Source: Clostridia bacterium | GTDB taxonomy: Bacteria > Bacillota > Clostridia > Christensenellales > Aristaeellaceae | Direction: 5' to 3' | Assembly (NCBI GenBank): GCA_017527065.1 | Contig: JAFXQO010000041.1 | Location: 1-48,787, forward strand | DNA length: 48,787 bases | In this document: in pieces, positions 3,954-30,766 of the stretch | How the letters are laid out: every line of letters begins with the position of its first letter | How positions within the stretch are numbered: the stretch's first letter is position 1 | Position numbers and translations under genes: made by a program | The notes under the pieces: model-generated | The model's database searches: none | What the model was told of the DNA's origin: nothing | What the model saw: the letters and a program-made list of their open reading frames with translations, nothing else

Positions 3954-5702
3954 ATGGCCTCGAGACTTCCGGACGCCTGGCTTGACGAACTGCGCTCACG
4001 CGTTGAAATTACCGACGTCGTGGCGGAATATGTGGAACTAAAGCAAAAGGGGAGACGCTTTTGGGGGCGCTGCCCTTTTCATGGTGAAAAGACGCCTTCT
4101 TTCAGCGTGGACAGCGAAGCGCAGATGTTTTACTGCTTCGGCTGCCACAAGGGCGGCACCGTGATCAACTTCATCATGGAAATCGAGCGCATGGAGTTCA
4201 TGGAGGCTGTGAAGCTGCTGGCCGACAGGGCGCACATGGAGCTTCCCGCCCGGGTGGACGACGGACGCAGCGACGAACAGACGCGGGCGCTGAGGGAACG
4301 CATCTATGAGGCGAATCTGGAGGCCGCCCGCTTCTACCACGCCACGATCTGGACGGAGGAAGGCGCGGAGGCGCTCAGCTACCTGCACAAGCGCGGGCTG
4401 GACGACGCGGGCATCCGCCGCTTCGGGCTCGGCTCCACGGCCCACGGCTGGGACGCGCTGACCCGGCACCTGACGGAACAGGGCTTCACCTTCGACGAAT
4501 TAAAGCAGGCCGGCCTCGCCAGCGAGCGCGACGGACGCCGATACGACATGTTCCGCGGCCGCGCCATGTTTCCCATCATCAACCCCCAGGGGCGCGTGCT
4601 GGGCTTCGGCGGACGCATCATGGGCGAGGGCAATCCGAAATACCTCAACACCTCCGACACGCCCGTATTCAACAAGCGCCAGGGCCTGTATGCCCTCAAC
4701 CTGGCCAAGAAGGAGCGGGGCCTCAAGCGGCTGATCCTCGTGGAGGGCTACATGGACGTGGTATCGCTGCGACAGCAGGGCGTGCAGGGCGTCGTGGCAA
4801 CCCTGGGCACCGCGCTCACCGAGGAGCAGGCGCGCCTCATCAAGCGCTACGCGCCGGAGGTGTGGGTCTGCTACGACGGCGACAGCGCCGGTCAGAAGGC
4901 CATTCTGCGGGCGCTGGATATCTTTGAGTCTCAGGAAATGCCGGCAAAGGTCATCGACATCCCCGACGACATGGACCCCGACGATTACGTCAAAAAGAAC
5001 GGCGCGGAAGGCTTCGAGGCGCTTCGGCCCATGCCGCCCGCCGAATACAGAATGCTGCGCGCCGCCGACGGCGTCGATCTGACCACGCAGGACGGCCGCA
5101 CGCAGTACGCCATCGCCTGCTGCAGTATACTGCGCAGGGTATCCAATCCTGTGGAATTGGAAAACTACCTGAAAAAGCTGTCCGTGCAGACGGGATTCGA
5201 GCGGGAAGTGCTCCTGAAGCAGATAGGAACCGTCGCCCCGGCCGCGGAAGAAAAGAGGACCACGAGGCCGGTCGCGCGCTGGGAAAAGCCGGAAACGACG
5301 CCGGAGCACGTAAAGGCCGAGCAGCTGCTCATCAACCTGATCGCCAGAGGGCAGATAGACCGGGACCTGCCGCTGGAATCCGCCTTTGTGACGCCGCTGT
5401 ACCTGCGCGTCGCCCGGGAACTGTCGGCGGGGGAGAGCCCGGCCGCCATCCTCGAGCGGCTGGAGGACAGCGACCGCGAGGCGGCGGCGCAGGCGCTGAT
5501 GATGGACAGCCAGATCGAGCGCGATCAGGTCGCCCGGGCTGTTGAAGAATGTCTTGAAAAGATCGAACGGTACCGAAAGAAAACGCGGATTGAAGAAATA
5601 AAGGAACAGCTGAAGGGAGAAGCGTCTCCCGACAGGAAGACAGAATTACTGGCCCTTCTGACACAGCTGATGAACGAGCCTGGCAGCGCCAGGAAGCCCT
5701 GA
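3954..5702 (+). CDS. dnaG: DNA primase
   Basis: Makes the RNA primers for replication together with the replicative helicase. From the ATG at 3954 the protein has 582 residues, a normal length. That start is chosen over two upstream GTG codons because AGGTGG sits six bases before it. The N-terminal CHC2 zinc ribbon uses C40, H43, C61 and C64 ([11 protein letters not shown] and CFGCHKGG). The Toprim catalytic core shows LVEGYMDV near residue 261 and YDGDSAG near residue 307, which carry the metal-binding acidic residues. The C-terminal third matches the helicase-interaction region only in its helical character. It starts the dnaG-rpoD operon typical of Bacillota. The stop codon lies 13 bases before the rpoD start. 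Confidence 0.98.
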
Positions 5703-20416: not shown

Positions 20417-22582
20417 ATGCCAATTTCCTTCAATGAGTCCGATAAGGTCTTTCATCTGCAGGGCAAGACGTTCAGCTACTGTCTGATGCTCCATCCCGAG
20501 CAGGGCCTTCTGAACTTGTATTGGGGCAGCCGCCTGCCGGACGGCGAAATCACCTATCTGATCAACAGTTTCTGGGGCCTCGCGTCCTTTGATTTGGGCG
20601 CGAACCGCTTTCCCACCGAATTGCCCACCCGCGGCACGGGCTATTACGGCACGCCCGCCGTGTGCGCTTTGAACGCACAGGGCAACGACCTGACCAAGCT
20701 GACCTATGTGAGCCACGCCATCGTCCCCGGCAAGCGCAGGCTGGAGGGCCTGCCCGCCGTTTACACAGAGGCGGACAGCGAGGCGACCACCCTCGTGATC
20801 ACGCTGAAGGACGCGCTGACCGGCCTCACCGTCGAGGCGGAATACACCGTGCTGGAGGATCTGGACGCGCTGACGCGTTCCCTGCGCCTCACGAACGGCG
20901 GGGCCGAACGCCTCACGCTCACGCACATGCAGAGCGCCAGCGCGCCGCTCTATGGCGATGATTACGAGCTCATCAACCTGAACGGCGCGTGGGCCCGCGA
21001 GCGCCAGGTTGTCCGCACGCCCCTCGGCCGCGCGAACACCCGCGTGGAGAGCCAGCGGGGCGCCTCCGGCCACGAGCAGAACCCCTTCATCGCGCTGGTC
21101 AAGAAGGATACCACCGAGCAGGCCGGCTCCGCCTGGGCCATGGCGCTGGTGTACAGCGGCTCCTTCCTGGCGACGGCGGAGGTCAACAACTTCTACAACA
21201 CGCGCATGTCCATCGGCCTGAATCCCGAGGTGTGCCGCTGGCAGCTCGATCCCGGCGCGTCCTTCCAGACGCCCGAGGCCATCCTGGTCTATTCCGCCGA
21301 AGGCCTGAACGGCATGTCGCACCGGTTCCACAGGATCATCCGCACCCGCGTGGCGCGGGGCTACTGGCGCGACAAGGTGCGCCCGGTGCTCATCAACAAC
21401 TGGGAGGCGACCTATTTCGGCTTCAACGAGGAGCTCATTCTGAACATCGCCCGGGCGGCGAAGGAGATCGGCGTGGAGCTGTTCGTGCTGGATGACGGCT
21501 GGTTCGGCAAGCGCGACCGCGACAACTGCTCACTGGGCGATTGGGTGGTCGATCGGCGCAAGCTGCCGGGCGGCATCGAGGGCGTGGCCCGCAAGGTGAA
21601 CGAGCTCGGCCTACGCTTCGGCCTGTGGTTCGAGCCGGAGATGATCTCGCCCGACAGCGACCTGTACCGGGCGCATCCCGACTGGTGCCTGCACGTGGAC
21701 GGCCGCAGCCGCACCGAGGCCCGCCAGCAGCTCATCCTCGACCTGAGCCGCAAAGAGGTTCAGGATTACGTGATCGAGGCGGTCTCATCCGTGCTGCGCA
21801 GCGCGCCCATCAGCTACGTCAAGTGGGACATGAACCGCAACATGACCGAGTACTTCTCCGGCGATCAGACGCCGGACCGCCAGATGGAGACGCAGCATCG
21901 CTACATCCTCGGCCTGTATCGCGTGCTGGAGGAAATCACCTCCGCGTTCCCCGAGGTGCTGTTCGAGGGCTGCTCCGGCGGCGGCGGGCGCTTCGACGCC
22001 GGCTTCCTCTACTACATGCCGCAGTTCTGGACCAGCGACGACACCGACCCCGTGGAGCGCCTCGGCATCCAATACGGCACCAGCTTCGTTTATCCGCCGG
22101 CCACCATGGGCGCGCATGTTTCCGCCAGCCCGAATCACCAGACCGGCCGCGCCACCTCCATCAAGATGCGCGCCGACGTGGCGCTGGGCGGTAATTTCGG
22201 CTTTGAGCTCGACCTCAACAAGCTCACCCAGGAGGAAATCGAAGCCTGCCGCAAGGCCGTTGAGACGGTCAAAGCCGTGCGCGGCACGCTGCAGCAGGGC
22301 GAGTTCACCCGCCTGGAGAGCCCCTTCGAGGGCAATTTTGCGGCTTGGCAGTTCGTCGGAAACGAGGGGCGCGACGTGGTGCTCTGCGCCTATCAGCGGC
22401 TGGTCGCGCCGAATCCGGGCTGTCATCGCGTGTTTATGACCGGCCTTTGCCCGGACGCGCGCTATCGCGACGCGGAATCCGGCCAGGTGTTCTCCGGCGC
22501 GGCGCTCATGCACGCGGGCCTGCCGCTGCGGCCCATCCGCAGCGACTTCGGCAGCTGGATCTTCCGCTTTGAGAGGGTATAA
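20417..22582 (+). CDS. Alpha-galactosidase, glycoside hydrolase family 36
   Basis: Protein of 721 residues, ATG nine bases after GAGGAGG. GH36 enzymes release terminal alpha-1,6-galactose from raffinose-family sugars and galactomannans by a retaining mechanism. The N-terminal beta-supersandwich is followed by the TIM barrel with LFVLDDGWFGKRD near residue 357, WFEPEMISPDS near residue 405, KWDMNR near residue 470 (catalytic nucleophile Asp) and FEGCSGGGGRFD near residue 515, followed by WTSDDTD (acid/base region). There is no signal peptide, so it acts on imported oligosaccharides. The size matches the large tetrameric GH36 group. Galactose would pass to galK and galT encoded nearby on the other strand. 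The stop is one base before the DUF3842 gene. Confidence 0.96.
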   Translation: MPISFNESDKVFHLQGKTFSYCLMLHPEQGLLNLYWGSRLPDGEITYLINSFWGLASFDLGANRFPTELPTRGTGYYGTPAVCALNAQGNDLTKLTYVSHAIVPGKRRLEGLPAVYTEADSEATTLVITLKDALTGLTVEAEYTVLEDLDALTRSLRLTNGGAERLTLTHMQSASAPLYGDDYELINLNGAWARERQVVRTPLGRANTRVESQRGASGHEQNPFIALVKKDTTEQAGSAWAMALVYSGSFLATAEVNNFYNTRMSIGLNPEVCRWQLDPGASFQTPEAILVYSAEGLNGMSHRFHRIIRTRVARGYWRDKVRPVLINNWEATYFGFNEELILNIARAAKEIGVELFVLDDGWFGKRDRDNCSLGDWVVDRRKLPGGIEGVARKVNELGLRFGLWFEPEMISPDSDLYRAHPDWCLHVDGRSRTEARQQLILDLSRKEVQDYVIEAVSSVLRSAPISYVKWDMNRNMTEYFSGDQTPDRQMETQHRYILGLYRVLEEITSAFPEVLFEGCSGGGGRFDAGFLYYMPQFWTSDDTDPVERLGIQYGTSFVYPPATMGAHVSASPNHQTGRATSIKMRADVALGGNFGFELDLNKLTQEEIEACRKAVETVKAVRGTLQQGEFTRLESPFEGNFAAWQFVGNEGRDVVLCAYQRLVAPNPGCHRVFMTGLCPDARYRDAESGQVFSGAALMHAGLPLRPIRSDFGSWIFRFERV

Positions 22583-22583
22583 T

Positions 22584-23006
22584 ATGATTGTTGTCGTGAT
22601 GGACGCTCAGGGCGGCGGCGTGGGCCGCATGCTGGTGGAGCAGATGAAAAAACGCCTGCCGGAGCAGAAGCTCATCGCCGTGGGCACAAATTCGGCGGCG
22701 ACCGCGGCCATGCTGCGGGCTGGCGCGGATCAGGGCGCGACAGGGGAAAACGCCGTGCGCGTCAACGCGGCGCGGGCCGACCTGATTATCGCGCCCATCG
22801 GGCTGGCGCTCTGCGACGCCATGCTGGGCGAAGTGACAGGCGGCATGGCGCTGGCCGTGGGCGGCTCGCCGGGGCACAAGATCCTGGTGCCCGTGTCCCG
22901 CTGCGGCGTGACGATCGCGGGCACGCCGGCCATGACGCTGGCCGAGGCCGTTTCACAGGCGGTGGAGCAGGCCGTGCTGTTTGTGAATAACAATGGGATA
23001 GTATAA
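22584..23006 (+). CDS. DUF3842 family protein
   Basis: Protein of 140 residues starting one base after the alpha-galactosidase stop, with GAGAGG within that gene as its ribosome-binding site. The N-terminus MIVVVMDAQGGGVG looks like a Rossmann-type nucleotide-binding loop. Later segments (ADLIIAPIGLALCDAMLGE and KILVPVSRCGVTIAG) are characteristic of DUF3842, a small cytoplasmic family found mainly in Clostridia. The biochemical role is unknown. Coupling to the alpha-galactosidase may reflect only shared transcription. A strong terminator follows. Confidence 0.85.
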   Translation: MIVVVMDAQGGGVGRMLVEQMKKRLPEQKLIAVGTNSAATAAMLRAGADQGATGENAVRVNAARADLIIAPIGLALCDAMLGEVTGGMALAVGGSPGHKILVPVSRCGVTIAGTPAMTLAEAVSQAVEQAVLFVNNNGIV

Positions 23007-23010
23007 AAGA

Positions 23011-23056
23011 GCGAACCGGGCGGGCCGAAAGACAACGGCCCGCCCGGTTCGTTTGG
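23011..23056. terminator. Bidirectional terminator between DUF3842 and cupin genes
   Basis: A 15-base stem, CGAACCGGGCGGGCC pairing with GGCCCGCCCGGTTCG, with a ten-base loop. GTTTGG follows on the plus strand and CTCTTTTATA on the minus strand. Confidence 0.85.
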
Positions 23057-23063
23057 CGATCCT

Positions 23064-23396
23064 TTATTTCAGGAAATCCTCCCGCATGGGCGTGAACACA
23101 TCCACCAGGATGCCTTCCTCCAGGCACAGCGTGCCGTGGGGCTGGTTCGACTCGAAGACGAGGCTGTCGCCCGGGCCGACGATGACCGGCTTGTTATCCA
23201 CCGTGAACTCAAACAAGCCGGATCTGACATAGGTACACTGAACGTGCGGGTGAGTATGGACCGCCCCGCGGCCGTTTGTCTTGAAATGCACCTCGACCAT
23301 CATGATGTCCTTGTTGTAGGCGAGGATCTTGCGCCCGCTCAGTTCGTCGAGCTTGTGCAGCGGCGCGTCTTCGTTGTGGATCATGGAAACGCTCAT
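23064..23396 (-). CDS. Cupin-domain protein (KdgF-like)
   Basis: Protein of 110 residues, ATG with GGAGGG upstream. A single cupin barrel is shown by HTHPHVQCTYVRSGLFEF near residue 47 (metal-binding His residues) and GPGDSLVFESNQPHG near residue 74 (second motif with His). Small cupins of this kind include KdgF, which linearises unsaturated uronates released by polysaccharide lyases. The heparinase-type lyase and uronate epimerase elsewhere in the window make that role possible but unproven. It is the last gene of the galK-to-galT minus-strand operon, 26 bases after galT. Confidence 0.8.
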   Translation of the reverse strand: MSVSMIHNEDAPLHKLDELSGRKILAYNKDIMMVEVHFKTNGRGAVHTHPHVQCTYVRSGLFEFTVDNKPVIVGPGDSLVFESNQPHGTLCLEEGILVDVFTPMREDFLK

Positions 23397-23422
23397 GTCT
23401 TTTTCCCTCCGTCTTTTGTTTT

Positions 23423-24949
23423 TTACTTTTCCGTGTAACCCAGCGTGTTCAGGAAACGCAGCACGCCCGCGCGGCCGTTTTCATCGTGCTTGTAGACGCC
23501 CGCGTCGGCCAGCACGGCGGCGCACTTCACGGCCATCGCCGCATGGATGGCCTGAACGGCTTCTTCCTGTGTGAGCGACGCGCCGGTCTTCGCGGCGATC
23601 TCCTTCACCCATTCATAGTGCTTGAGGATGGGGGAGTCGTCGGCGGGCTTCTGGTCGAGGGGGATCTTGCCGGTCAGGTACCCGGACAGCTCGGACAGCT
23701 CGCCCAGCAGGCGGCCCGGCAGGATGAACAGGCCCATGACTTCGATCAGGCCGATGTTTTCCTTCTTGATGTGATGCAGCGGCGCGTGGGGGTGGAAGAT
23801 GCCCAGCGGGTTTTCCGCGTCGGTGCGGTTGTTGCGCAGCACCAGGTTCAGGCTCCACAGGCCGTCCTTTTTGCGCAGGATAGGCGTGATGGTATTGTGG
23901 GGCGCGTCGGTCTGGGCCAATATGCCGCAGGCCGCGTCGGAGTACGCCCGCCAGGCGTCAAGCATCGCCATCGCCGCGCGTTTCAGGGCGTTCCGATCCG
24001 CGCCGGTCAGATTCACGCAGGTAAGGGGCCAGTCGAGCACTGTCGCGTGAACGGCGGCGTCCGGGCCGTTCAGGTCGATCCACACGCCGGCGTGATCCAT
24101 GGGGAAGGTGTAGTGGCCGCCCTGGAAGTGGTCGTGGCCCAGTATGGAGCCGCCTACGATGGGCAGGTCGGCGTTGGAGCCGATCAGGTAGTGCGGGAAC
24201 TGCTCCACGAAGTCGAACAGGCAGTCAAAGGTATTCTCGCAGATGCGCATGGGCCGGTGCTGTTCGTTCAGCACGATGCAATGCTCCGGGTAATAGAGAT
24301 ACGGCGAGTATTGGAAATACCATCTCTCGCCGTTCAGCGTGAGCGGCACGAGGCGGTGGTTTTGACGGGCCGGGAAATCGAGCCGGCCGGCGTAACCGGT
24401 GTTTTCGACGCAGAGCAAGCATAGGGGATAGCCGACCTTCGGCGCGTTGCGCTGGGCGGCGATGTCGCGGGGGTCCTTTTCCGGCTTGGAGAGATTGATG
24501 GTGATTTCCAGTTCACCCGCGGGCGAATCGATGAAGTAGCGCACGTTGCGGGCGATGCTGTCCACGCGGATGTAGTCGCACGCACGGCACATCTCGTAGA
24601 ACCACGCCGTGGCCGCCTCCGGGCCTTCGCTCTCATACAGCGCCTTGAATTTGCCGCGCACGACGGCGGGCGCGGGCGTGATTTCGCCGCACAGTTTCGC
24701 GCCGAAGAGATCCTTCGCGCCGGCCGTGTCCGCGATGAGGCCGCGCTGAGCCGCGACGGCGGTCAGTTCCTCCAGCATGGGCGTGACGGTGGGCGGCAGC
24801 GGCTCGTCGCAGGGCTTCGTCTCCTCGGGCGCGCTCATCTGCATGGCCTCGAGCAGGCGGTTGAGGATGTAGGGGCGGTCGATGTCCTCCACAAGGCCGT
24901 GGGCGACGGCGAAATCAATCAGGCGCAGGAGGTTTTCGGTGGCGTTCAT
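23423..24949 (-). CDS. galT: UDP-glucose--hexose-1-phosphate uridylyltransferase, Firmicutes type
   Basis: Protein of 508 residues from the ATG at 24949 (MNATENLLRLIDFA). An upstream in-frame TTG lies inside the end of rsmI and has no ribosome-binding site. GalT transfers UMP between UDP-glucose and galactose-1-phosphate in the Leloir pathway. The length and the motif LGHDHFQGGHYTFPMDHAG near residue 280 identify the GalT type 2 family of Bacillota, which differs from the 350-residue E. coli type. Other family blocks are YLYYPEHCIVLNEQHRPM and RNNRTDAENPLGIFHPH. It belongs to the operon that begins with galK, but rRNA and tRNA modification genes separate the two Leloir genes. Confidence 0.95.
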   Translation of the reverse strand: MNATENLLRLIDFAVAHGLVEDIDRPYILNRLLEAMQMSAPEETKPCDEPLPPTVTPMLEELTAVAAQRGLIADTAGAKDLFGAKLCGEITPAPAVVRGKFKALYESEGPEAATAWFYEMCRACDYIRVDSIARNVRYFIDSPAGELEITINLSKPEKDPRDIAAQRNAPKVGYPLCLLCVENTGYAGRLDFPARQNHRLVPLTLNGERWYFQYSPYLYYPEHCIVLNEQHRPMRICENTFDCLFDFVEQFPHYLIGSNADLPIVGGSILGHDHFQGGHYTFPMDHAGVWIDLNGPDAAVHATVLDWPLTCVNLTGADRNALKRAAMAMLDAWRAYSDAACGILAQTDAPHNTITPILRKKDGLWSLNLVLRNNRTDAENPLGIFHPHAPLHHIKKENIGLIEVMGLFILPGRLLGELSELSGYLTGKIPLDQKPADDSPILKHYEWVKEIAAKTGASLTQEEAVQAIHAAMAVKCAAVLADAGVYKHDENGRAGVLRFLNTLGYTEK

Positions 24950-24971
24950 GGCAATCACTCTCGCTTTCTCT

Positions 24972-25829
24972 TCACTCTTCTTCAAATAAACCCTGTATCC
25001 GCACCTTCGCGCGGTATATCTCGTTTCTCGGGCAGCCGGCCTTCCGGGCGGCTTCTTCCGCTTCCTCCAGGCTCGCGCCGTCCAGTATGGCGCGGAGCAT
25101 GACCACGTCGGCGGGCAGCGCCTCGGCCTTCTTTTCGACAGGCGGCATAGGACTCATGTCGATCACCAGGCAGTATTCGCCCTTTTCCACGTTGGGATTG
25201 GCCGTGAGCTGGGCCAGAACGGCCTCGCAGGGTCCCCGGTAGATCTTCTCATAGAGCTTGCTCAGATCGCAGCATACCGCCAGATCGCAGCCGGGCAGCG
25301 CCTGGTAGATCGCCTCGACCAGCTTCACCACGCGATGCGGCGATTCATACGCCACGGCCACCGGGACGCCTGTTTCACGGATGGCGCCGAGCTTTTCCAT
25401 GAGCGGCTTTTTCTCCCGCGGCAGGAAGCCGTAGAAGGCGAATTCCCGCGCGTCGAATCCGGCGGCGGAGAGGGCTGTCACCGTGGCGGAGGGGCCGCAC
25501 ACCGGCTTCACCTCGATGCCCGCGCGCCAGGCGGCGTCAACCAGAACCCGACCCGGGTCTGAAATGGCCGGCGTGCCCGCGTCGCAGGTGAGGGCGACAG
25601 TGAGGTTCTCGGCGAGCATGCGCTCGATGATCGGGCCGGAACGGCTTTCCTCGTTGTGCCGGTGACAGGATACGGTCGGTTTTGACAGGCCCAGGTGGTT
25701 CAAGAGCTTCATCGCCACGCGGGTGTCCTCCGCGGCGACGAGATCGGCCTGCTCCAGCGCCTCGCGCACGCGGGGCGAGAGGTCGTTCAGGTTGCCGATG
25801 GGCGTGGCGACGACATACAGTACGGCCAT
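24972..25829 (-). CDS. rsmI: 16S rRNA (cytidine(1402)-2'-O)-methyltransferase
   Basis: Protein of 285 residues from the ATG at 25829. RsmI adds the 2'-O-methyl group to C1402 in helix 44 of 16S rRNA, next to the P site, working with RsmH, which adds the N4-methyl to the same base. The tetrapyrrole-methylase fold is shown by LYVVATPIGNLNDLSPR at the N-terminus, LVAAEDTRV near residue 35, LTCDAGTPAISDPG near residue 82 and YESPHRV near residue 167. The normal length is 280-290. The start is two bases from the end of the Rmt-like methyltransferase gene, so the two are translationally linked. Having rsmI and rsmH in one operon is unusual. Confidence 0.95.
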   Translation of the reverse strand: MAVLYVVATPIGNLNDLSPRVREALEQADLVAAEDTRVAMKLLNHLGLSKPTVSCHRHNEESRSGPIIERMLAENLTVALTCDAGTPAISDPGRVLVDAAWRAGIEVKPVCGPSATVTALSAAGFDAREFAFYGFLPREKKPLMEKLGAIRETGVPVAVAYESPHRVVKLVEAIYQALPGCDLAVCCDLSKLYEKIYRGPCEAVLAQLTANPNVEKGEYCLVIDMSPMPPVEKKAEALPADVVMLRAILDGASLEEAEEAARKAGCPRNEIYRAKVRIQGLFEEE

Positions 25830-25831
25830 GA

Positions 25832-26572
25832 TTATACTCCGCTCCTTCGGACGATGTAGCACAGCTCGCCGAACAGCGCCTCGCGCCGCAGGATGTCGAA
25901 CATGCCGCGCGATTCGCCCTCGAACCATTCGCTGTAATGCCGCTCCATTCCGACGCCGCGTCCGCCCAGCGTTTTCATGGGAAATGTGACGATGATCACC
26001 GGCGCGGGCAAACGCCCCAGGAGCCGCATGGCCGCGCCCTTCTCCTGCTGCTCAAGAACGGGCAGCAGCTTCATCGCCAGCGCGGCGTCTGCCCCGGGCA
26101 AATGTGGGTCGCAGAGCAGGTCGCGGCACTCGGCGGATACGTCCCAGCCCCGGGCCGCCGCCCAATCGTTCACCAGGGCGATGCAGCCGCCGCTGATGTC
26201 GACGCCGCGCACCACGAAGCCCCGGGACCCCAGATAGATGGGGTTCAGCCCGCAGGCCAGATCGAGCAGCGTGCGCGCGCCGATGGGCCCCAGCAGCGCG
26301 TCGTAGAAGGCGTCGATGTGGGGGAGGCGTTCGCGCGTAGAGGAATGCAGCGCCAGCGTTTCGGAGAGCGCCCGGGCCGGGTCGTCCCCAGCGGATGCGA
26401 GCAGCTTTCGCGCGCGCTTCAGTTCGTCCGGCGTCATGAACGCGCCGGTGATCTGGTGCAGCGCGGTTTTAACGGCCTTGTCCGCTTCCTTCGCGCTCCG
26501 GTAGCGGGCCGCGGCCTGCGCCGTCAGCCGGGCCACGGTATCCGGGCAGATATCCGCGTATTTACCGCCCAT
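25832..26572 (-). CDS. 16S rRNA (guanine(1405)-N7)-methyltransferase family protein (Rmt/ArmA/FmrO type)
   Basis: Protein of 246 residues, the usual size of the aminoglycoside-resistance rRNA methyltransferases. From memory of RmtB the matches run from end to end: KYADICPDTVARL (4-16), ITGAFMTPDELK (41-52), LALHSSTRERLPHIDAFYD (73-91), the SAM-binding block LLDLACGLNP (102-111), ALAMKLLPVLEQ (164-175), VTFPMKTLGGRGVGME (195-210) and HYSEWFEG (212-219). The family methylates N7 of G1405 in the aminoglycoside site of 16S rRNA, blocking gentamicin and amikacin binding. The ATG overlaps the tgt stop by 11 bases and rsmI starts two bases after this gene, so it is embedded in a modification operon. 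Composition equals its neighbours, and no mobile element is near. Family membership is very likely, but target base and resistance need testing. Confidence 0.9.
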   Translation of the reverse strand: MGGKYADICPDTVARLTAQAAARYRSAKEADKAVKTALHQITGAFMTPDELKRARKLLASAGDDPARALSETLALHSSTRERLPHIDAFYDALLGPIGARTLLDLACGLNPIYLGSRGFVVRGVDISGGCIALVNDWAAARGWDVSAECRDLLCDPHLPGADAALAMKLLPVLEQQEKGAAMRLLGRLPAPVIIVTFPMKTLGGRGVGMERHYSEWFEGESRGMFDILRREALFGELCYIVRRSGV

Positions 26573-27650
26573 CGCGCATCAACTCCATCAGGCGGGCGTA
26601 GAAGCGCAGGTTGTGGGCCGTCGCGAGCCGGTAAGCCTGGGCGTCGCCGATCTTGAAAAGATGATGAAGATACGCCCGCGAATAGCGCCGGCACAGGACG
26701 CAATCGCAGTTCGGATCGACGGGCTCCTTATCGCGCACATGCGCTTCGTCCATCATGTAGAGGAACGAGTAGAACTTGCCGTCCGCCCGGCGCACGCCCT
26801 CGGCGGTATCCATGCCCTTTTTGAATACGTACAGCCGCTGGTGGCGCGCCTCGCGGGTTGGGATCACGCAGTCGAACAGCGTGTAGCCCATGCCGACGCA
26901 TTTCACGATCTCCTCCGGCCGGCCGAGTCCCATGGCGTAGCGGGGGAGGTTCGGATCCATGGCGTCGGCGCAGTCCTGCAGGATATCCTCGCGTAGTTTT
27001 CCATTTGCGTCCAGCGGCCAGCCGCCGAAGCCAAAGCCGTCGAAGCCGATCTCGCGCAGCCGCGCGCCGCATTCCAGCCGCAGCGCCTGGCTGCCGCCGC
27101 CCTGCACGATGCCGAACAGCAGCGGCCTCGGCCCCTTCCGGCCCTTCGCCAGCTTGTCATATTCCGCCCGGCATCGCGCCGCCCATTTCACCGTCAGTTC
27201 GACGGAGCGGCGCTGCGCCTCGTCCGGGTCGTCCGGCTCGGTGCACACGTCCAGCGCCATCATGATGTCCGAACCGAACTGGAACTGGGCCTGGATGCAC
27301 TTTTCGGGCGTGAAGGTGAGCCTCTCTGCGCCGCGGTCCGGCCGGAAGATGATTTCGTTGTCGCGAATCTCGCCGTACTCCGGGTTTTCATGGATGAGGG
27401 AATACAGCTGGAACCCGCCGGAATCGGTGAGGATGGGGCGGCGCCAGCCGGTGAAGGCGTGCAGTCCTCCCACGCTCTTGATGAGCCGGGCGCCGGGCCG
27501 GTTGTAGAGATGATACGTGTTCATCACGCAGCCCGGAATGCCTGCGTTTTCCGCGTCCTCGAAGCCGGTGGCCCGCAGCGCGCCGTAGGTGGCGTCCGGG
27601 AAAAAGGCGGGCAGCGGCACAGCGCCGTGGGGGGTGTTGAGCTCCGGCAT
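26562..27650 (-). CDS. tgt: tRNA-guanine transglycosylase (queuine tRNA-ribosyltransferase family)
   Basis: Protein of 362 residues from the ATG at 27650 with GGAGG upstream. It exchanges G34 of tRNAs with GUN anticodons for preQ1 or queuine. Visible are ILTDSGGFQLYSL near residue 81 (catalytic Asp), FDCVIPTREARH near residue 262 (nucleophile Asp) and the zinc site CDCVLC plus a later His (YLHHLF). The base-recognition loop, usually GGLAVGE or GGLSVGE, here reads FGFGGWPLDANG, which points to a distinct subfamily and perhaps another base preference such as queuine salvage. It lies ten bases after rsmH and overlaps the Rmt-like gene. Confidence 0.88.
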   Translation of the reverse strand: MPELNTPHGAVPLPAFFPDATYGALRATGFEDAENAGIPGCVMNTYHLYNRPGARLIKSVGGLHAFTGWRRPILTDSGGFQLYSLIHENPEYGEIRDNEIIFRPDRGAERLTFTPEKCIQAQFQFGSDIMMALDVCTEPDDPDEAQRRSVELTVKWAARCRAEYDKLAKGRKGPRPLLFGIVQGGGSQALRLECGARLREIGFDGFGFGGWPLDANGKLREDILQDCADAMDPNLPRYAMGLGRPEEIVKCVGMGYTLFDCVIPTREARHQRLYVFKKGMDTAEGVRRADGKFYSFLYMMDEAHVRDKEPVDPNCDCVLCRRYSRAYLHHLFKIGDAQAYRLATAHNLRFYARLMELMRDGR

Positions 27651-27660
27651 AATTCCTCCG

Positions 27661-28608
27661 TTACAGGTGTTCAATGATGCGCAGCGTGGCGCTGCGGGCG
27701 CGGGGATTTTCGGCGAGTTCTTCCAAAGAAGCCGTGACCGGCTTGCGGGTGATGGGTTTCACCGCGGCCTTCCTGCCGCAAACGCACACGGGGAAGGAGG
27801 GCGGACAGACGCAGGGATTCGCCAGCGAACGGAAGGTGTTTTTGACCACCCTGTCCTCCAGCGAATGAAACGCGATCACGCACAGCCGTCCGCCGGGATT
27901 CAGCAGCGACGCGATATCTCTAAGCGCCTGCTCCAGCGGGGCCAGCTCGTCGTTCACGGCGATGCGCAGCGCCTGGAAGGTGCGCCGCGCCGGATGGGAG
28001 CCGTCCTTCTCCCGCAGCTTTTTCGGGATGGCCGCGTCGATGACGGACACCAGCTGCCCCGTGGTGAGGATGGGCGCGGCCTTCCGCCGGTCGCAGATGA
28101 CGCGGGCGATCTGCGCGGCCCAGTTTTCCTCGCCCCAGTCGCGCAGGACGCGGGCGATCTCATCCGCGCTCCATTCATTGACGATTTTGGCGGCGGTCAG
28201 CGCCTGGCCGCGGTCCATGCGCATGTCCAGCGGCGCGTCGGTGTGATAGGAAAAGCCGCGCGCGCCCTCGTCCAGCTGATACGACGACACGCCCAGGTCG
28301 AGAAGCGCCCCGTCGATCTTCTCCACACCGATGCCCGCGAGCAGCGCCTTCGCGTCGTGGAAATTGCCGCGCAGCGCGTCGAAGCGGGGCAGGCCGTCCC
28401 TTTGCAGCGCCGCGATGCGCGCGGAAGCGGCCTCGATGGCGTCGCCGTCACGGTCGATGCCGATCAGCCGCCCGCCTTCGAGGCGCTTCAGTATTTCGCT
28501 CGAATGTCCGCCGCCTCCCAGCGTGCCGTCGAGGTATACGCCGTCCGGACGGACGGCCAGCCCCTCCATGCACTCTTCCAGCAGCACGGGCCTATGCTTA
28601 AACTCCAT
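27661..28608 (-). CDS. rsmH: 16S rRNA (cytosine(1402)-N4)-methyltransferase
   Basis: Protein of 315 residues, normal for RsmH (MraW), which methylates N4 of C1402 in the decoding centre. The start HRPVLLEECMEGL, the SAM loop YLDGTLGGGGHSSEIL near residue 25, LDLGVSSYQLDEGARGFSY near residue 102 and the C-terminal VIAFHSLEDRVVKN near residue 238 are diagnostic. Unusually it is not in the mraZ-rsmH-ftsL division cluster where it normally lies. Here it follows galK (41-base gap holding a heptamer repeat) and leads tgt, the Rmt-like gene and rsmI. Confidence 0.97.
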   Translation of the reverse strand: MEFKHRPVLLEECMEGLAVRPDGVYLDGTLGGGGHSSEILKRLEGGRLIGIDRDGDAIEAASARIAALQRDGLPRFDALRGNFHDAKALLAGIGVEKIDGALLDLGVSSYQLDEGARGFSYHTDAPLDMRMDRGQALTAAKIVNEWSADEIARVLRDWGEENWAAQIARVICDRRKAAPILTTGQLVSVIDAAIPKKLREKDGSHPARRTFQALRIAVNDELAPLEQALRDIASLLNPGGRLCVIAFHSLEDRVVKNTFRSLANPCVCPPSFPVCVCGRKAAVKPITRKPVTASLEELAENPRARSATLRIIEHL

Positions 28609-28623
28609 AACTTCCTGATTATA

Positions 28624-28655
28624 AATTCCTAATTCCCAATTCCAAATTCCTAATT
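28624..28655. repeat. Heptanucleotide tandem repeat overlapping the galK stop codon
   Basis: Units AATTCCT, AATTCCC, AATTCCA and AATTCCT at exact 7-base spacing (28624, 28631, 28638, 28645), with a partial fifth unit AATT at 28652. It fills the galK-rsmH gap and runs into the last codons of galK. Confidence 0.85.
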
Positions 28656-29933
28656 GAGCCTCAACTCCACCGCGCCGTCCGCGCGGATCATGAGCTGGGT
28701 GACCGCGCCTTCGCCGAACACGGCGTTCATGGCCGCGGTGTATTTGGCTGTCATATCCTTCGGAATAAACGCCAGGATGGTGCCCGCGAAGCCGCCGCCG
28801 TGGATGCGCCAGGCGCCCTTGCCCTCCAGCATGCGGCGGGACAGCTCCAGCGCCAACGGCATTTCCTGGTTGTCGCTCCCGGCCACATACAGGTTTTGCA
28901 GCAGCTTCCAGGAGGATTCGCCGGAGGCCACCAGCATGTCGAAGAAGGTCCTGATGTCGCCTTCCGACAGCGCGGCGACGGCTCTCTGAACGCGCTTGTT
29001 CTCATCGTAGAAGTGCAGCGCGCGCAGTATGGCGCGATCCTTCACCTTGCCCTTGAGGGCCGGGATCTGCTTTTCCATCTCGTCCGGATCAATCTCGCGT
29101 AACACCTTGCCGCCCAGCGCCTCGGCTACGGATCTCATCTCGGCGGGGATGGCGGCGTATTCATGGGTCAGGTTGCCGTGTTCGCCGCCCACGGATACCA
29201 CGGCCGGCACGTATCCCGCCGCGCCGAAATCGAACTTCATGGCGGTGACGACGGGATCGGCCTGCCCGAAGTCGATGGCGACCAGGCCGCCCACGGAGCT
29301 GGCCATCTGATCCATCAGGCCGCAGGGCTTGCCGAAGAACACGTTTTCGGCGTATTGGCCGATCTTGGCGCGCAGTTTGGCGTCCACCACGAAGCCGTTA
29401 AACAGCGAATCGAAAATAGCGCACACCAGCACCTCGAAGGCGGCGGAGGAGCTCAGGCCGGAGCCCTTGAACACGGTGGAGGTGGCCACGGCGTCGAAGC
29501 CGCCGATGACATAGCCCAGTTCCTTCATGCGCGCCGCGACGCCCCGGATGAGGCCGTCGGTGGTCTCGTATTCGCTCTTCTTCGGTTCGAGGTCGTTGAG
29601 ATCGACAACGAATGCCTTGTCATAACCCTCGGAGTAAAGCGTCACGACGGAGGTGCCGTTGGGCGTGACCGCGGCGACGGTGTCCAGGTTGACGGCGGCC
29701 GCCAGCACGCAGCCGCTGTTGTGATCCGTATGGTTGCCCGCCACCTCGGTGCGGCCGGGCGCGGAAACGAAGCGAAGGCCGTCTTTCTCGCCGAAGAGCG
29801 CCGCGTGGCGGGCGGCCAGGGCGGCATACCGCTCAGTCTGGGGGGCGATGGCGTCGCGGCCGTAGAGCCGGGTCAGGAACTCGATCGCGGCGGGCGAGGC
29901 GAGGGCATGGGAGGCTTGCGTATTCAGGCTCAT
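28650..29933 (-). CDS. galK: Galactokinase
   Basis: Protein of 427 residues from the ATG at 29933 with AGGAG eight bases upstream. It phosphorylates galactose to galactose-1-phosphate in the Leloir pathway. The GHMP-kinase signatures are the sugar-binding block SAPGRTEVAGNHTDHNSG near residue 56 (the common form is GRVNLIGEHTDYN, so this is the Asn variant seen in Clostridia), the ATP loop GSGLSSSAAFEV near residue 158 and the C-terminal IHGGGFAGTILAF near residue 377. The catalytic Asp lies in CGLMDQMASS near residue 206. It heads the minus-strand operon galK-rsmH-tgt-rmt-rsmI-galT-cupin, with a promoter about 35 bases upstream. Confidence 0.94.
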   Translation of the reverse strand: MSLNTQASHALASPAAIEFLTRLYGRDAIAPQTERYAALAARHAALFGEKDGLRFVSAPGRTEVAGNHTDHNSGCVLAAAVNLDTVAAVTPNGTSVVTLYSEGYDKAFVVDLNDLEPKKSEYETTDGLIRGVAARMKELGYVIGGFDAVATSTVFKGSGLSSSAAFEVLVCAIFDSLFNGFVVDAKLRAKIGQYAENVFFGKPCGLMDQMASSVGGLVAIDFGQADPVVTAMKFDFGAAGYVPAVVSVGGEHGNLTHEYAAIPAEMRSVAEALGGKVLREIDPDEMEKQIPALKGKVKDRAILRALHFYDENKRVQRAVAALSEGDIRTFFDMLVASGESSWKLLQNLYVAGSDNQEMPLALELSRRMLEGKGAWRIHGGGFAGTILAFIPKDMTAKYTAAMNAVFGEGAVTQLMIRADGAVELRLN

Positions 29934-29967
29934 GGATGTCACTCCTGTCAGGCAGTATTTCTCATTT

Positions 29968-29996
29968 ATTTTAATGCAAAACGCGGGACTTGGCAA
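29968..29996 (-). promoter_or_regulatory. Promoter of the galK operon
   Basis: Minus strand TTGCCA (29991-29996), 17 bases, TAAAAT (29968-29973). No clear operator is seen, which would fit constitutive expression of the rRNA-modification genes carried in the operon. Confidence 0.65.
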
Positions 29997-30037
29997 CGGA
30001 TTTTTCGCAAATTGGGCATGAAATCACATCGTCCGCT

Positions 30038-30571
30038 TCAAACGCCCAATTCGCGCTCGATGCGCTTCAACAGCGCGGGCAGTTCTTCCGGCCTGTCGAG
30101 CACGTAATCGGGGGTTTCCGCGGCGTTTGACCACTCGTGACGGTAGCGCGGCGACATGCGCAGGAACGCCGAGCGGACGCCAAAGGCGTTGGCTCCGGCC
30201 ACATCCTTTGCCAGATTGTTGCCGATCATGAGGATGCGCGGTTTGTCCGTCCCGGAAAGGCCCAGCTGGTCCATGGCGCACTGGAACATGCGCGCGTCGG
30301 GCTTTTCAACGCCCACCGCCTCAGAAATGGCCTTCGCGGCGAAGATATGGTCGAGTCCATGCTGGGTCATGGTATTGTGGAAGGATTCAACCAGTCCGTC
30401 GGCCACCATGGCGATGGTGTATCCTTCCTCATACAGGGCGAGCATGGTTTCCTTCGCGCCCGGCAGGCAGTCCGCCCGGCTCACGACGCCGCCCGGCACG
30501 GCGCGGATCTCCGTGCCCTCGTCGATGATGGTGTCTCCGATGTCGGTAAAGAGTATGACGCGATGCTCCAT
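30038..30571 (-). CDS. HAD superfamily hydrolase
   Basis: Protein of 177 residues, ATG at 30571 with GGAGG seven bases upstream. HAD motifs are visible: ILFTDIGDTIID near residue 6 (motif I, nucleophile Asp), IAMVADG near residue 55 (motif II region), the Lys in VGVEKPDARMF near residue 90 (motif III) and ILMIGNNLAKDVAGA near residue 113 (motif IV). In motif I the usual second Asp of D-x-D is Gly (D-I-G), as in YihX-like sugar phosphatases. A small-molecule phosphatase is likely, with unknown substrate. It is divergent from the tagaturonate epimerase gene with about 195 bases between start codons. Confidence 0.85.
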   Translation of the reverse strand: MEHRVILFTDIGDTIIDEGTEIRAVPGGVVSRADCLPGAKETMLALYEEGYTIAMVADGLVESFHNTMTQHGLDHIFAAKAISEAVGVEKPDARMFQCAMDQLGLSGTDKPRILMIGNNLAKDVAGANAFGVRSAFLRMSPRYRHEWSNAAETPDYVLDRPEELPALLKRIERELGV

Positions 30572-30608
30572 GGCGAGGCCTCCATTCGTGTGTTCATGCT
30601 GTGCGACT

Positions 30609-30638
30609 ATTATAGCATATCCCGCGCCGCCCACGCAA
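30609..30638 (-). promoter_or_regulatory. Promoter of the HAD gene
   Basis: Minus strand TATAAT (30609-30614) in a TGC-extended context, with TTGCGT (30633-30638) at 18 bases. Confidence 0.65.
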
Positions 30639-30670
30639 CGGCAAACGCGCTTCTCCGGTCCATTTGAGCC

Positions 30671-30699
30671 TTGACAACCTTCCCGCGGTTGGGTATGAT
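30671..30699 (+). promoter_or_regulatory. Promoter of the tagaturonate epimerase gene
   Basis: TTGACA (30671-30676), 17 bases, TATGAT (30694-30699). Confidence 0.8.
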
Positions 30700-30766
30700 T
30701 AAGTCGCAGGCACACGACACTGAATCAGAAGGTCGCGGAACGCGAATCAGGACAGGAGGATGTATG

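Follow-up and report, generated by a model that had tools for sequence, protein, structure and literature searches.

To our knowledge, the origin of the acquired G1405 16S rRNA methyltransferases of Gram-negative pathogens is an open question. Aminoglycoside-producing actinomycetes are a commonly suggested source according to the accessible text of PMC12406665, and the accessible part of PMC12188727 does not list 16S methyltransferases among models of resistance-gene transfer between phyla. In the open-access literature searched, so far as its text was available, no statement was found on a chromosomal source of acquired rmt genes or on a second tRNA-guanine transglycosylase (Tgt); subscription papers lay outside the scope of the search.

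The window analysed here, the whole 48,787-nucleotide stretch of contig JAFXQO010000041.1 from a member of the Clostridia, carries a gene of the Rmt type and raises the question of what such a gene does there and how it is related to the plasmid forms. Taking all of the evidence together, we consider it highly probable that the gene encodes a native 16S rRNA G1405 N7-methyltransferase, that it belongs to an operon devoted to the decoding centre, and that it represents the source type of several plasmid rmt genes.

The rmt gene and its product

A preliminary description had likened a 246-residue frame to RmtB and ArmA on the strength of seven sequence blocks; the frame and all seven blocks are present in the translation, on the minus strand (Table 1), which that description had left unspecified. 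The protein scored 109.6 bits against PF07091 (gathering score 27) and 262.1 bits against the NCBIfam Rmt equivalog NF000466 (cut-off 250). Comparison with solved structures using phmmer gave 6pi9 (E 4.1e-68) and 3b89 (E 3.3e-55), both labelled as 16S rRNA methyltransferases; further solved relatives were Sgm (3lcu, E 4e-35) and 8ghu (E 4e-21). We take 6pi9, 3b89 and 8ghu to be RmtF, RmtB and RmtC, respectively. Similarity of this degree lies well outside chance, and the homologue of RmtB/ArmA type is real and native.

By tblastn the plasmid-borne RmtF1 was 51.3% identical to the window protein over 97% of the query. Identities to the acquired enzymes were 51% for RmtF, 41-45% for RmtB, RmtG and RmtD, and 32% for RmtE2. 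All 23 residues that are invariant in eight acquired sequences (RmtB1, RmtB2, RmtC, RmtD1, RmtE2, RmtF1, RmtG and ArmA) are kept; conservation is the sole basis on which these residues were judged. Within the set RmtB1 is a near-copy of RmtB2, and RmtA and RmtH lie outside it. The enzymes RmtA to RmtH are listed as acting at G1405 in the available portion of PMC9311965, and because the window protein is bracketed by enzymes so listed, its predicted target is G1405. A 19-base pattern for the 16S decoding site, searched with a tolerance of two mismatches, matched 2 of 36 relatives, both without Rmt; the pattern is rarely found probably because the draft genomes lack 16S genes.

Pairwise dN/dS values for four rmt genes of the same genus ranged from 0.16 to 0.28 (six pairs), and rmt is under purifying selection. 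An open reading frame on the plus strand (25937-26656) overlaps rmt and was taken for a shadow frame.

The operon in the window

Table 1. Genes of the rmt operon and its flanks in the window
Gene	Position	Strand	Length and start	Product or remark
galT	23423..24985	minus		Flank downstream of the operon; likewise in same-genus relatives
rsmI	24972..25928	minus		16S rRNA C1402 2'-O-methyltransferase
rmt	25832..26572	minus	246 aa, ATG start, TAA stop	Predicted G1405-type 16S rRNA N7-methyltransferase
tgt2	26562..27674	minus	370 aa, TTG start	Second tRNA-guanine-transglycosylase paralogue; catalytic residues and zinc ligands conserved; pocket motif GGWPLDA
rsmH (mraW)	27661..28608	minus		16S rRNA C1402 N4-methyltransferase
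galK	28650..29996	minus		Flank upstream of the operon; likewise in same-genus relatives

The genes follow one another on the same strand in the order galK, rsmH, tgt2, rmt, rsmI, galT. The end of rsmH overlaps tgt2 by 14 bases, and the last 11 bases of tgt2 are also the first 11 of rmt. Since the TIGR00096 match of RsmI starts only at residue 36, rsmI probably begins in fact with the ATG at 25829, two bases past the rmt stop. In the closest relative (G004/RUG13560) tgt2 lies in two frames that change near residue 300 (L003:413-1508), through error or decay.

The compact operon described beforehand was borne out. The local composition, described as normal, proved slightly different: the GC content of rmt (67.9%) is a little above that of its three operon neighbours (64.6-66.7%), and the window as a whole has 61.6%. 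No mobile-element family was found among the nine scanned proteins of 22569-30715, and the operon place of rmt is conserved in relatives, so that on these grounds the window gene does not show the transposon, IS or plasmid context of an acquired gene. An aminoglycoside biosynthesis cluster was likewise absent among the scanned neighbours (rsmH, tgt2, rsmI, galT, galK, a HAD hydrolase, a cupin and a DUF3842 protein).

By their family names and the available text of PMC5053481, RsmH and RsmI have the same target, C1402 of 16S rRNA. This base is three positions from G1405. A 2025 paper, PMC12406665, refers in its accessible part to earlier work showing that ArmA blocks the action of RsmI at C1402; marks at C1402 and G1405 are therefore known to influence each other. 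In the mechanism that we propose, Rmt would methylate G1405 at N7 on the 30S subunit, and Rmt, Tgt2 and the two C1402 enzymes RsmH and RsmI would jointly tune the decoding site. The accompanying loss of 4,6-deoxystreptamine binding would be incidental, and resistance would appear after transfer to aerobes that take up aminoglycosides.

Distribution within the family and class

The window Rmt was matched in 16 of 60 relatives. As the match in G037 (E 2e-4) is at chance level, 15 of the 60 were counted as carriers; two of these (G023 and G031) hold rmt as fragments only. Across the family, 150 of 308 genomes match Rmt at E 0.001 or better, and 69, spread over 19 of 50 genera, have a strong match (E <= 2.3e-17; the next best E is 3.5e-9). 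No strong match is present in 239 of the 308 genomes, many of them incomplete drafts, so the family can do without the gene. In the class sample PF07091 was matched in 7 of 391 genomes, with four of the matches over the cut-off.

A script that required the same strand and a distance within 300 bases was applied to 67 of the 69 strong-match genomes, and placed tgt directly upstream of rmt in 61. Three more have tgt adjacent by coordinates (G649, with 358 bases between the genes, G634 and G716). By the same strict script rsmI is directly downstream of rmt in 42 of the 67, many others being cut or further apart. The only Tgt found in G561 is a 39%-identical copy with the canonical motif, and rmt there lies near a contig end. 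Among the high-scoring named loci, tgt2 is linked in 41/44, rsmH in 36/44 and rsmI in 39/44. Three genomes of the family (G511, G512 and G520; loci L163, L165 and L168 with L244, L246 and L247) carry the operon in two separate parts, rmt-rsmI and rsmH-tgt2, neither of which has been lost.

The family that bears the native operon consists of gut and rumen anaerobes. Among its named members are Candidatus Faecivicinus and Candidatus Excrementavichristensenella, which the available text of PMC8035907 assigns to GTDB order Christensenellales, family CAG-74; the window's family is therefore probably CAG-74.

The same data bear on a different purpose for the gene, namely that gut and soil bacteria retain rmt as an intrinsic resistance gene against the aminoglycosides of their neighbours, and not to tune the ribosome. 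The window Rmt belongs to the same family as the self-protection genes of producers (124 bits to Sgm), and a patchy distribution, with 69 carriers in 308 family genomes, is what a dispensable defence trait would show. Against this, the genes linked with rmt are tgt2 and, in many cases, rsmH and rsmI, not drug genes; there is purifying selection as well, though a resistance gene would show the same. Anaerobes take up aminoglycosides poorly, so that selection for resistance should be weak. On balance we regard intrinsic resistance as unlikely, while leaving it some weight, and prefer a native function at the decoding centre.

Relatives beyond the family

Named-genome loci were compared for the best 80 of 406 relatives, and 36 of these 80, scoring no more than 240 bits to the Rmt profile, were taken to lie outside the family. 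Twenty-two of the 36 are labelled Chloroflexota, and the others come from Gemmatimonadota, Latescibacterota, Armatimonadota, Eiseniibacteriota, Bacillota and Patescibacteria-type genomes. Within the locus, a tgt gene is on the same strand in 28 of the 36 and rsmI is present in 10, six of which show the order rsmI-tgt-rmt. The rmt-tgt pair is also present in other phyla.

For the eight outside-family loci without tgt, the genomes were searched. Those of L105 and L117 hold an unlinked Tgt2 with GGWP, those of L097 and L102 hold a Tgt with the canonical motif only, and that of L100 has one 43% Tgt copy whose pocket motif was not located by the script. The remaining three are Patescibacteria (L080, L087 and L109, two of them Liptonbacteria); each carries an Rmt homologue, and no Tgt match was obtained in their genomes of about 1 Mb. 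Because of the outside-family genomes in which no Tgt2 was found, the pairing of Tgt2 with Rmt is strong but not absolute.

The second Tgt paralogue

The window genome encodes two Tgts, a canonical one scoring 566 bits against PF01702 and the operon Tgt2 scoring 323 bits; the unusual second Tgt had been overlooked in the preliminary description. QueA, the next enzyme of queuosine synthesis, was found in 60/60 relatives. Of the 60 relatives, the 15 with Rmt, and no others, have a Tgt at least 55% identical to the window Tgt2; in the 45 without Rmt the best Tgt is 42% identical. Since the genomes are related and the genes mostly neighbours, this co-occurrence reflects joint gain or loss, and the 60 genomes do not count as independent trials. 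Two further genomes of the class sample, G061 and G143, have a strong native Rmt, and both also have Tgt2 (52% and 59%, partial matches). No other Tgt in that sample exceeded 42% identity to the window Tgt2 among the matches listed; G405, with a weak PF07091 match, has only a 38% Tgt copy with the canonical motif.

The catalytic aspartates, the glutamine and the zinc ligands are kept in all or nearly all of 91 operon Tgts. At the pocket, GG[W/F/Y]P was read in 91/91 linked Tgts (GGWP in 89, GGFP in one and GGYP in one) and GGL[S/A]VGE in 20/20 canonical Tgts; the GGWPLDA of the window Tgt2 thus differs from the canonical motif. Residue numbers are those of the Zymomonas Tgt, and the pocket loop has a part in holding the base. 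The pattern of conserved and altered residues suggests that the chemistry of Tgt2 is retained and its base pocket changed.

It may be asked whether Tgt2 is a plain queuosine Tgt that happens to adjoin rmt. Its conserved catalytic Asp, Gln and zinc ligands would agree with this, as would the scores of the window Tgt2 (308.2 bits) and the rmtB2 plasmid Tgt (317.7 bits) above the TIGR00430 cut-off of 306.75, and its co-occurrence with Rmt could be joint gain or loss of neighbours in 60 non-independent genomes. In addition, five Rmt genomes without Tgt2 were found (the three Patescibacteria without any Tgt, and G720 and G722 with the canonical motif only), a further Rmt genome (G721) holds one Tgt copy whose motif was not read, and G561, in the window's own family, shows a canonical-motif copy only. 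However, a canonical Tgt is present in the same genome and QueA in all 60 relatives, the pocket motif differs in all 91 linked Tgts, and Tgt2 is present in 15/15 Rmt relatives and 0/45 others. It is also kept where it is unlinked (G511, G512, G520 and the genomes of L105 and L117), and the rmtG plasmid Tgt falls below the TIGR00430 cut-off at 296.2 bits. A plain queuosine role therefore seems to us rather improbable.

A more far-reaching proposal, which we put forward tentatively and rate as unlikely, is that Tgt2 acts on the ribosome and not on tRNA, replacing a 16S rRNA guanine within or close to the decoding site by another base, and forms a joint module with Rmt at G1405 and with RsmH and RsmI at C1402. 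Such a module would extend from Clostridia to Chloroflexota and Gemmatimonadota, and the clinical rmt genes would be fragments of it torn loose several times.

Pieces of the operon on plasmids

A tblastn search of plasmids with the window Tgt gave 69 records, 12 of them at 60-80% identity and 57 under 60%; four of the 57 were at 53-54%. Neighbourhoods were examined in six of the 16 records at 60-80% and 53-54%. The tgt genes beside plasmid rmtG, rmtD1, rmtB2 and rmtE2 are 53-69% identical to the window tgt. The rmtG plasmid carries rsmH (71% identical to the window gene), tgt (68%), rmtG and then 79 matched residues of rsmI (73%), and the block recurs as a tandem repeat in a second plasmid. 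The rmtD1 plasmid has the last 30 aa of rsmH, tgt (69%) and rmtD1; the rmtB2 plasmid has tgt (64%), a metallophosphoesterase and rmtB2; and the rmtE2 plasmid has a tgt lacking its first third (54%) followed by rmtE2, with a second record also showing a broken tgt. In the 1.5-4 kb flanks of the records examined, no tgt was found near rmtB1, rmtF1, rmtC or armA.

Native loci contain closer relatives of these plasmid Tgts. The closest native Tgt is 82% identical to that of rmtD1 (L062), 81-84% to that of rmtG (L077, and L065 over 337 residues), up to 70% to that of rmtB2 and 63% to that of rmtE2. The closest native Rmt is only 52% identical to RmtG and 56% to RmtD, so the donor species of rmtG and rmtD were not sampled.

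An IS91-type transposase is present in the examined stretch for rmtG, rmtB2, rmtE2, rmtC and one of two rmtF1 records; none is annotated in the examined stretch for rmtD1, rmtB1, armA or the second rmtG record. Copies of ISCR14 around rmtD2 are described in the accessible part of PMC11590977. Because such transposases or ISCR14 adjoin several rmt genes, capture by IS91/ISCR-type elements is suggested. Gene order and trees support separate captures of several plasmid rmt genes from operons of the window's type, some retaining pieces of rsmH, tgt2 or rsmI.

Several further features of the plasmids were noted. The metallophosphoesterase between tgt and rmtB2 lies at L034:7158-7967 on a Providencia plasmid, and a tgt-phosphoesterase-rmt arrangement was not found in the native loci compared. 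Small open reading frames directly after rmtD1 (L032:6854-7237) and rmtE2 (L035:6564-6881) may mark donors; RsmI was considered as their identity and rejected, as they had no NCBIfam match and no homologue in the native loci compared. Partial rmtF copies flank plasmid rmtF (L037:4006-4157 and 4962-5061), with 96.7% identity over 152 bases upstream and 93% over 100 bases downstream, and are perhaps the remains of diverged tandem copies.

Phylogeny and the direction of transfer

After removal of 20 loci (fragments, chance hits and repeat records) and of repeat copies, 107 Rmt and 91 Tgt rows remained. The Rmt tree was built from the 107 rows by the careful method and rooted at the midpoint. RmtD and RmtG are sisters (99/93) inside a 35-row clade (100/97) whose other 33 rows are native. 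The window Rmt lies in a 61-row clade (98/97) that contains RmtD, RmtG and RmtF, and RmtF, inside this native clade, may be nested or its first branch. RmtB comes next outside (63 rows, 99/94). The partners of RmtE2 are L014, from the window's family, and L022, from a different family of Clostridia (100/97). The positions of RmtC and ArmA, both on long branches, are uncertain; ArmA, RmtC and RmtE2 have odd composition.

A single origin of the eight acquired rows was rejected (219 log-likelihood units, p-AU 6.6e-37). Also rejected were RmtB, RmtD, RmtF and RmtG as a single clade (94 units, p 5.1e-4) and the 58 native rows as a clade excluding the acquired ones (91 units, p 6.5e-4), both of these groups having been chosen after the tree was seen. 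The Tgt tree (111 rows) was made by a quick method without bootstrap and rooted on chosen canonical Tgts, and it carried a long-branch warning; in it the four plasmid Tgts fall in clades matching their Rmts. The rmtD1 and rmtG Tgts are not sisters there, unlike RmtD and RmtG in the Rmt tree. Several captures from related donors fit best.

The topology also bears on the target. Activity at G1405 is a prediction, and identity to the acquired enzymes is 51% at best, so that the window Rmt might methylate another base or another RNA. Since its clade includes RmtF, RmtD and RmtG and has RmtB next to it, and since 23/23 invariant residues are kept, such a change of target would be very unlikely, and G1405 is the preferred assignment.

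Flow in the opposite direction, with plasmid rmt genes inserted into these chromosomes, has a precedent in that acquired genes do enter chromosomes: a gene identical to rmtB1 is present in the chromosome record of Providencia rettgeri PROV023 (L060). The native genes, however, are far more diverse, forming a broad radiation that is largely matched by Tgt2, they hold the same operon place, and the tgt-rmt pair is shared by relatives in other phyla. Insertion from plasmids is accordingly extremely improbable, and movement from chromosomes to plasmids is the direction we adopt.

Gene order and trees together point firmly to capture of rmtD and rmtG from the window's family. On the same evidence rmtF and rmtB were probably captured from that family or a close sister, and an origin of rmtE in related Clostridia is supported. 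The capture explanation does not cover ArmA and RmtC. The suggestion that an anaerobe of this kind could be a reservoir or ancestor of the mobile genes holds at the level of the family, in which RmtD and RmtG are nested, and plasmid rmtG, rmtD1, rmtB2 and rmtE2 retain operon neighbours. The window rmt itself was rejected as a donor because its identities to the acquired enzymes are too low (51% at best).

The evidence places the source of several acquired G1405 methyltransferases in uncultured gut and rumen Clostridia. With the family named and donor-type operon pieces found on plasmids, the origin of the acquired enzymes becomes directly testable. A native setting for G1405 methylation, apart from resistance, is suggested, and the second Tgt subfamily tied to Rmt, should its substrate prove to be rRNA, would add a new component to ribosome biology.

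Comparison with known systems

RmtF resembles the window Rmt in its 51% identity over 97% of the length, in the same invariant residues and in its place in the native family clade. It differs in its plasmid location: one record has an IS91-type transposase close by, the flank examined contains no tgt, and partial self-copies lie on both sides. The rmtG plasmid block has the same four genes as the window, in the same order and with short rsmH/tgt and tgt/rmt overlaps; unlike the window operon it is mobile and its rsmI is shortened, and RmtG is 42% identical to the window Rmt. The available text of PMC9311965 describes rmtG in an operon with rsmH, tgt and 'rsmL', that of PMC3904158 a tRNA ribosyltransferase gene immediately upstream of rmtG, and that of PMC10132066 mentions an unnamed primary ancestor for rmtE4.

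The Sgm/Grm self-protection enzymes share the Pfam family, named FmrO, with the window Rmt (124 bits for Sgm), but the score of Sgm is more distant than those of 6pi9 and 3b89. Unlike the genes of Sgm/Grm producers, the window rmt has RNA-modification and galactose genes as neighbours and no antibiotic cluster. Tgt2, for its part, resembles the canonical queuosine Tgt in sequence family and catalytic residues, and differs from it in having GG[W/F/Y]P in place of GGL[S/A]VGE, in being a second genome copy and in being tied to Rmt.
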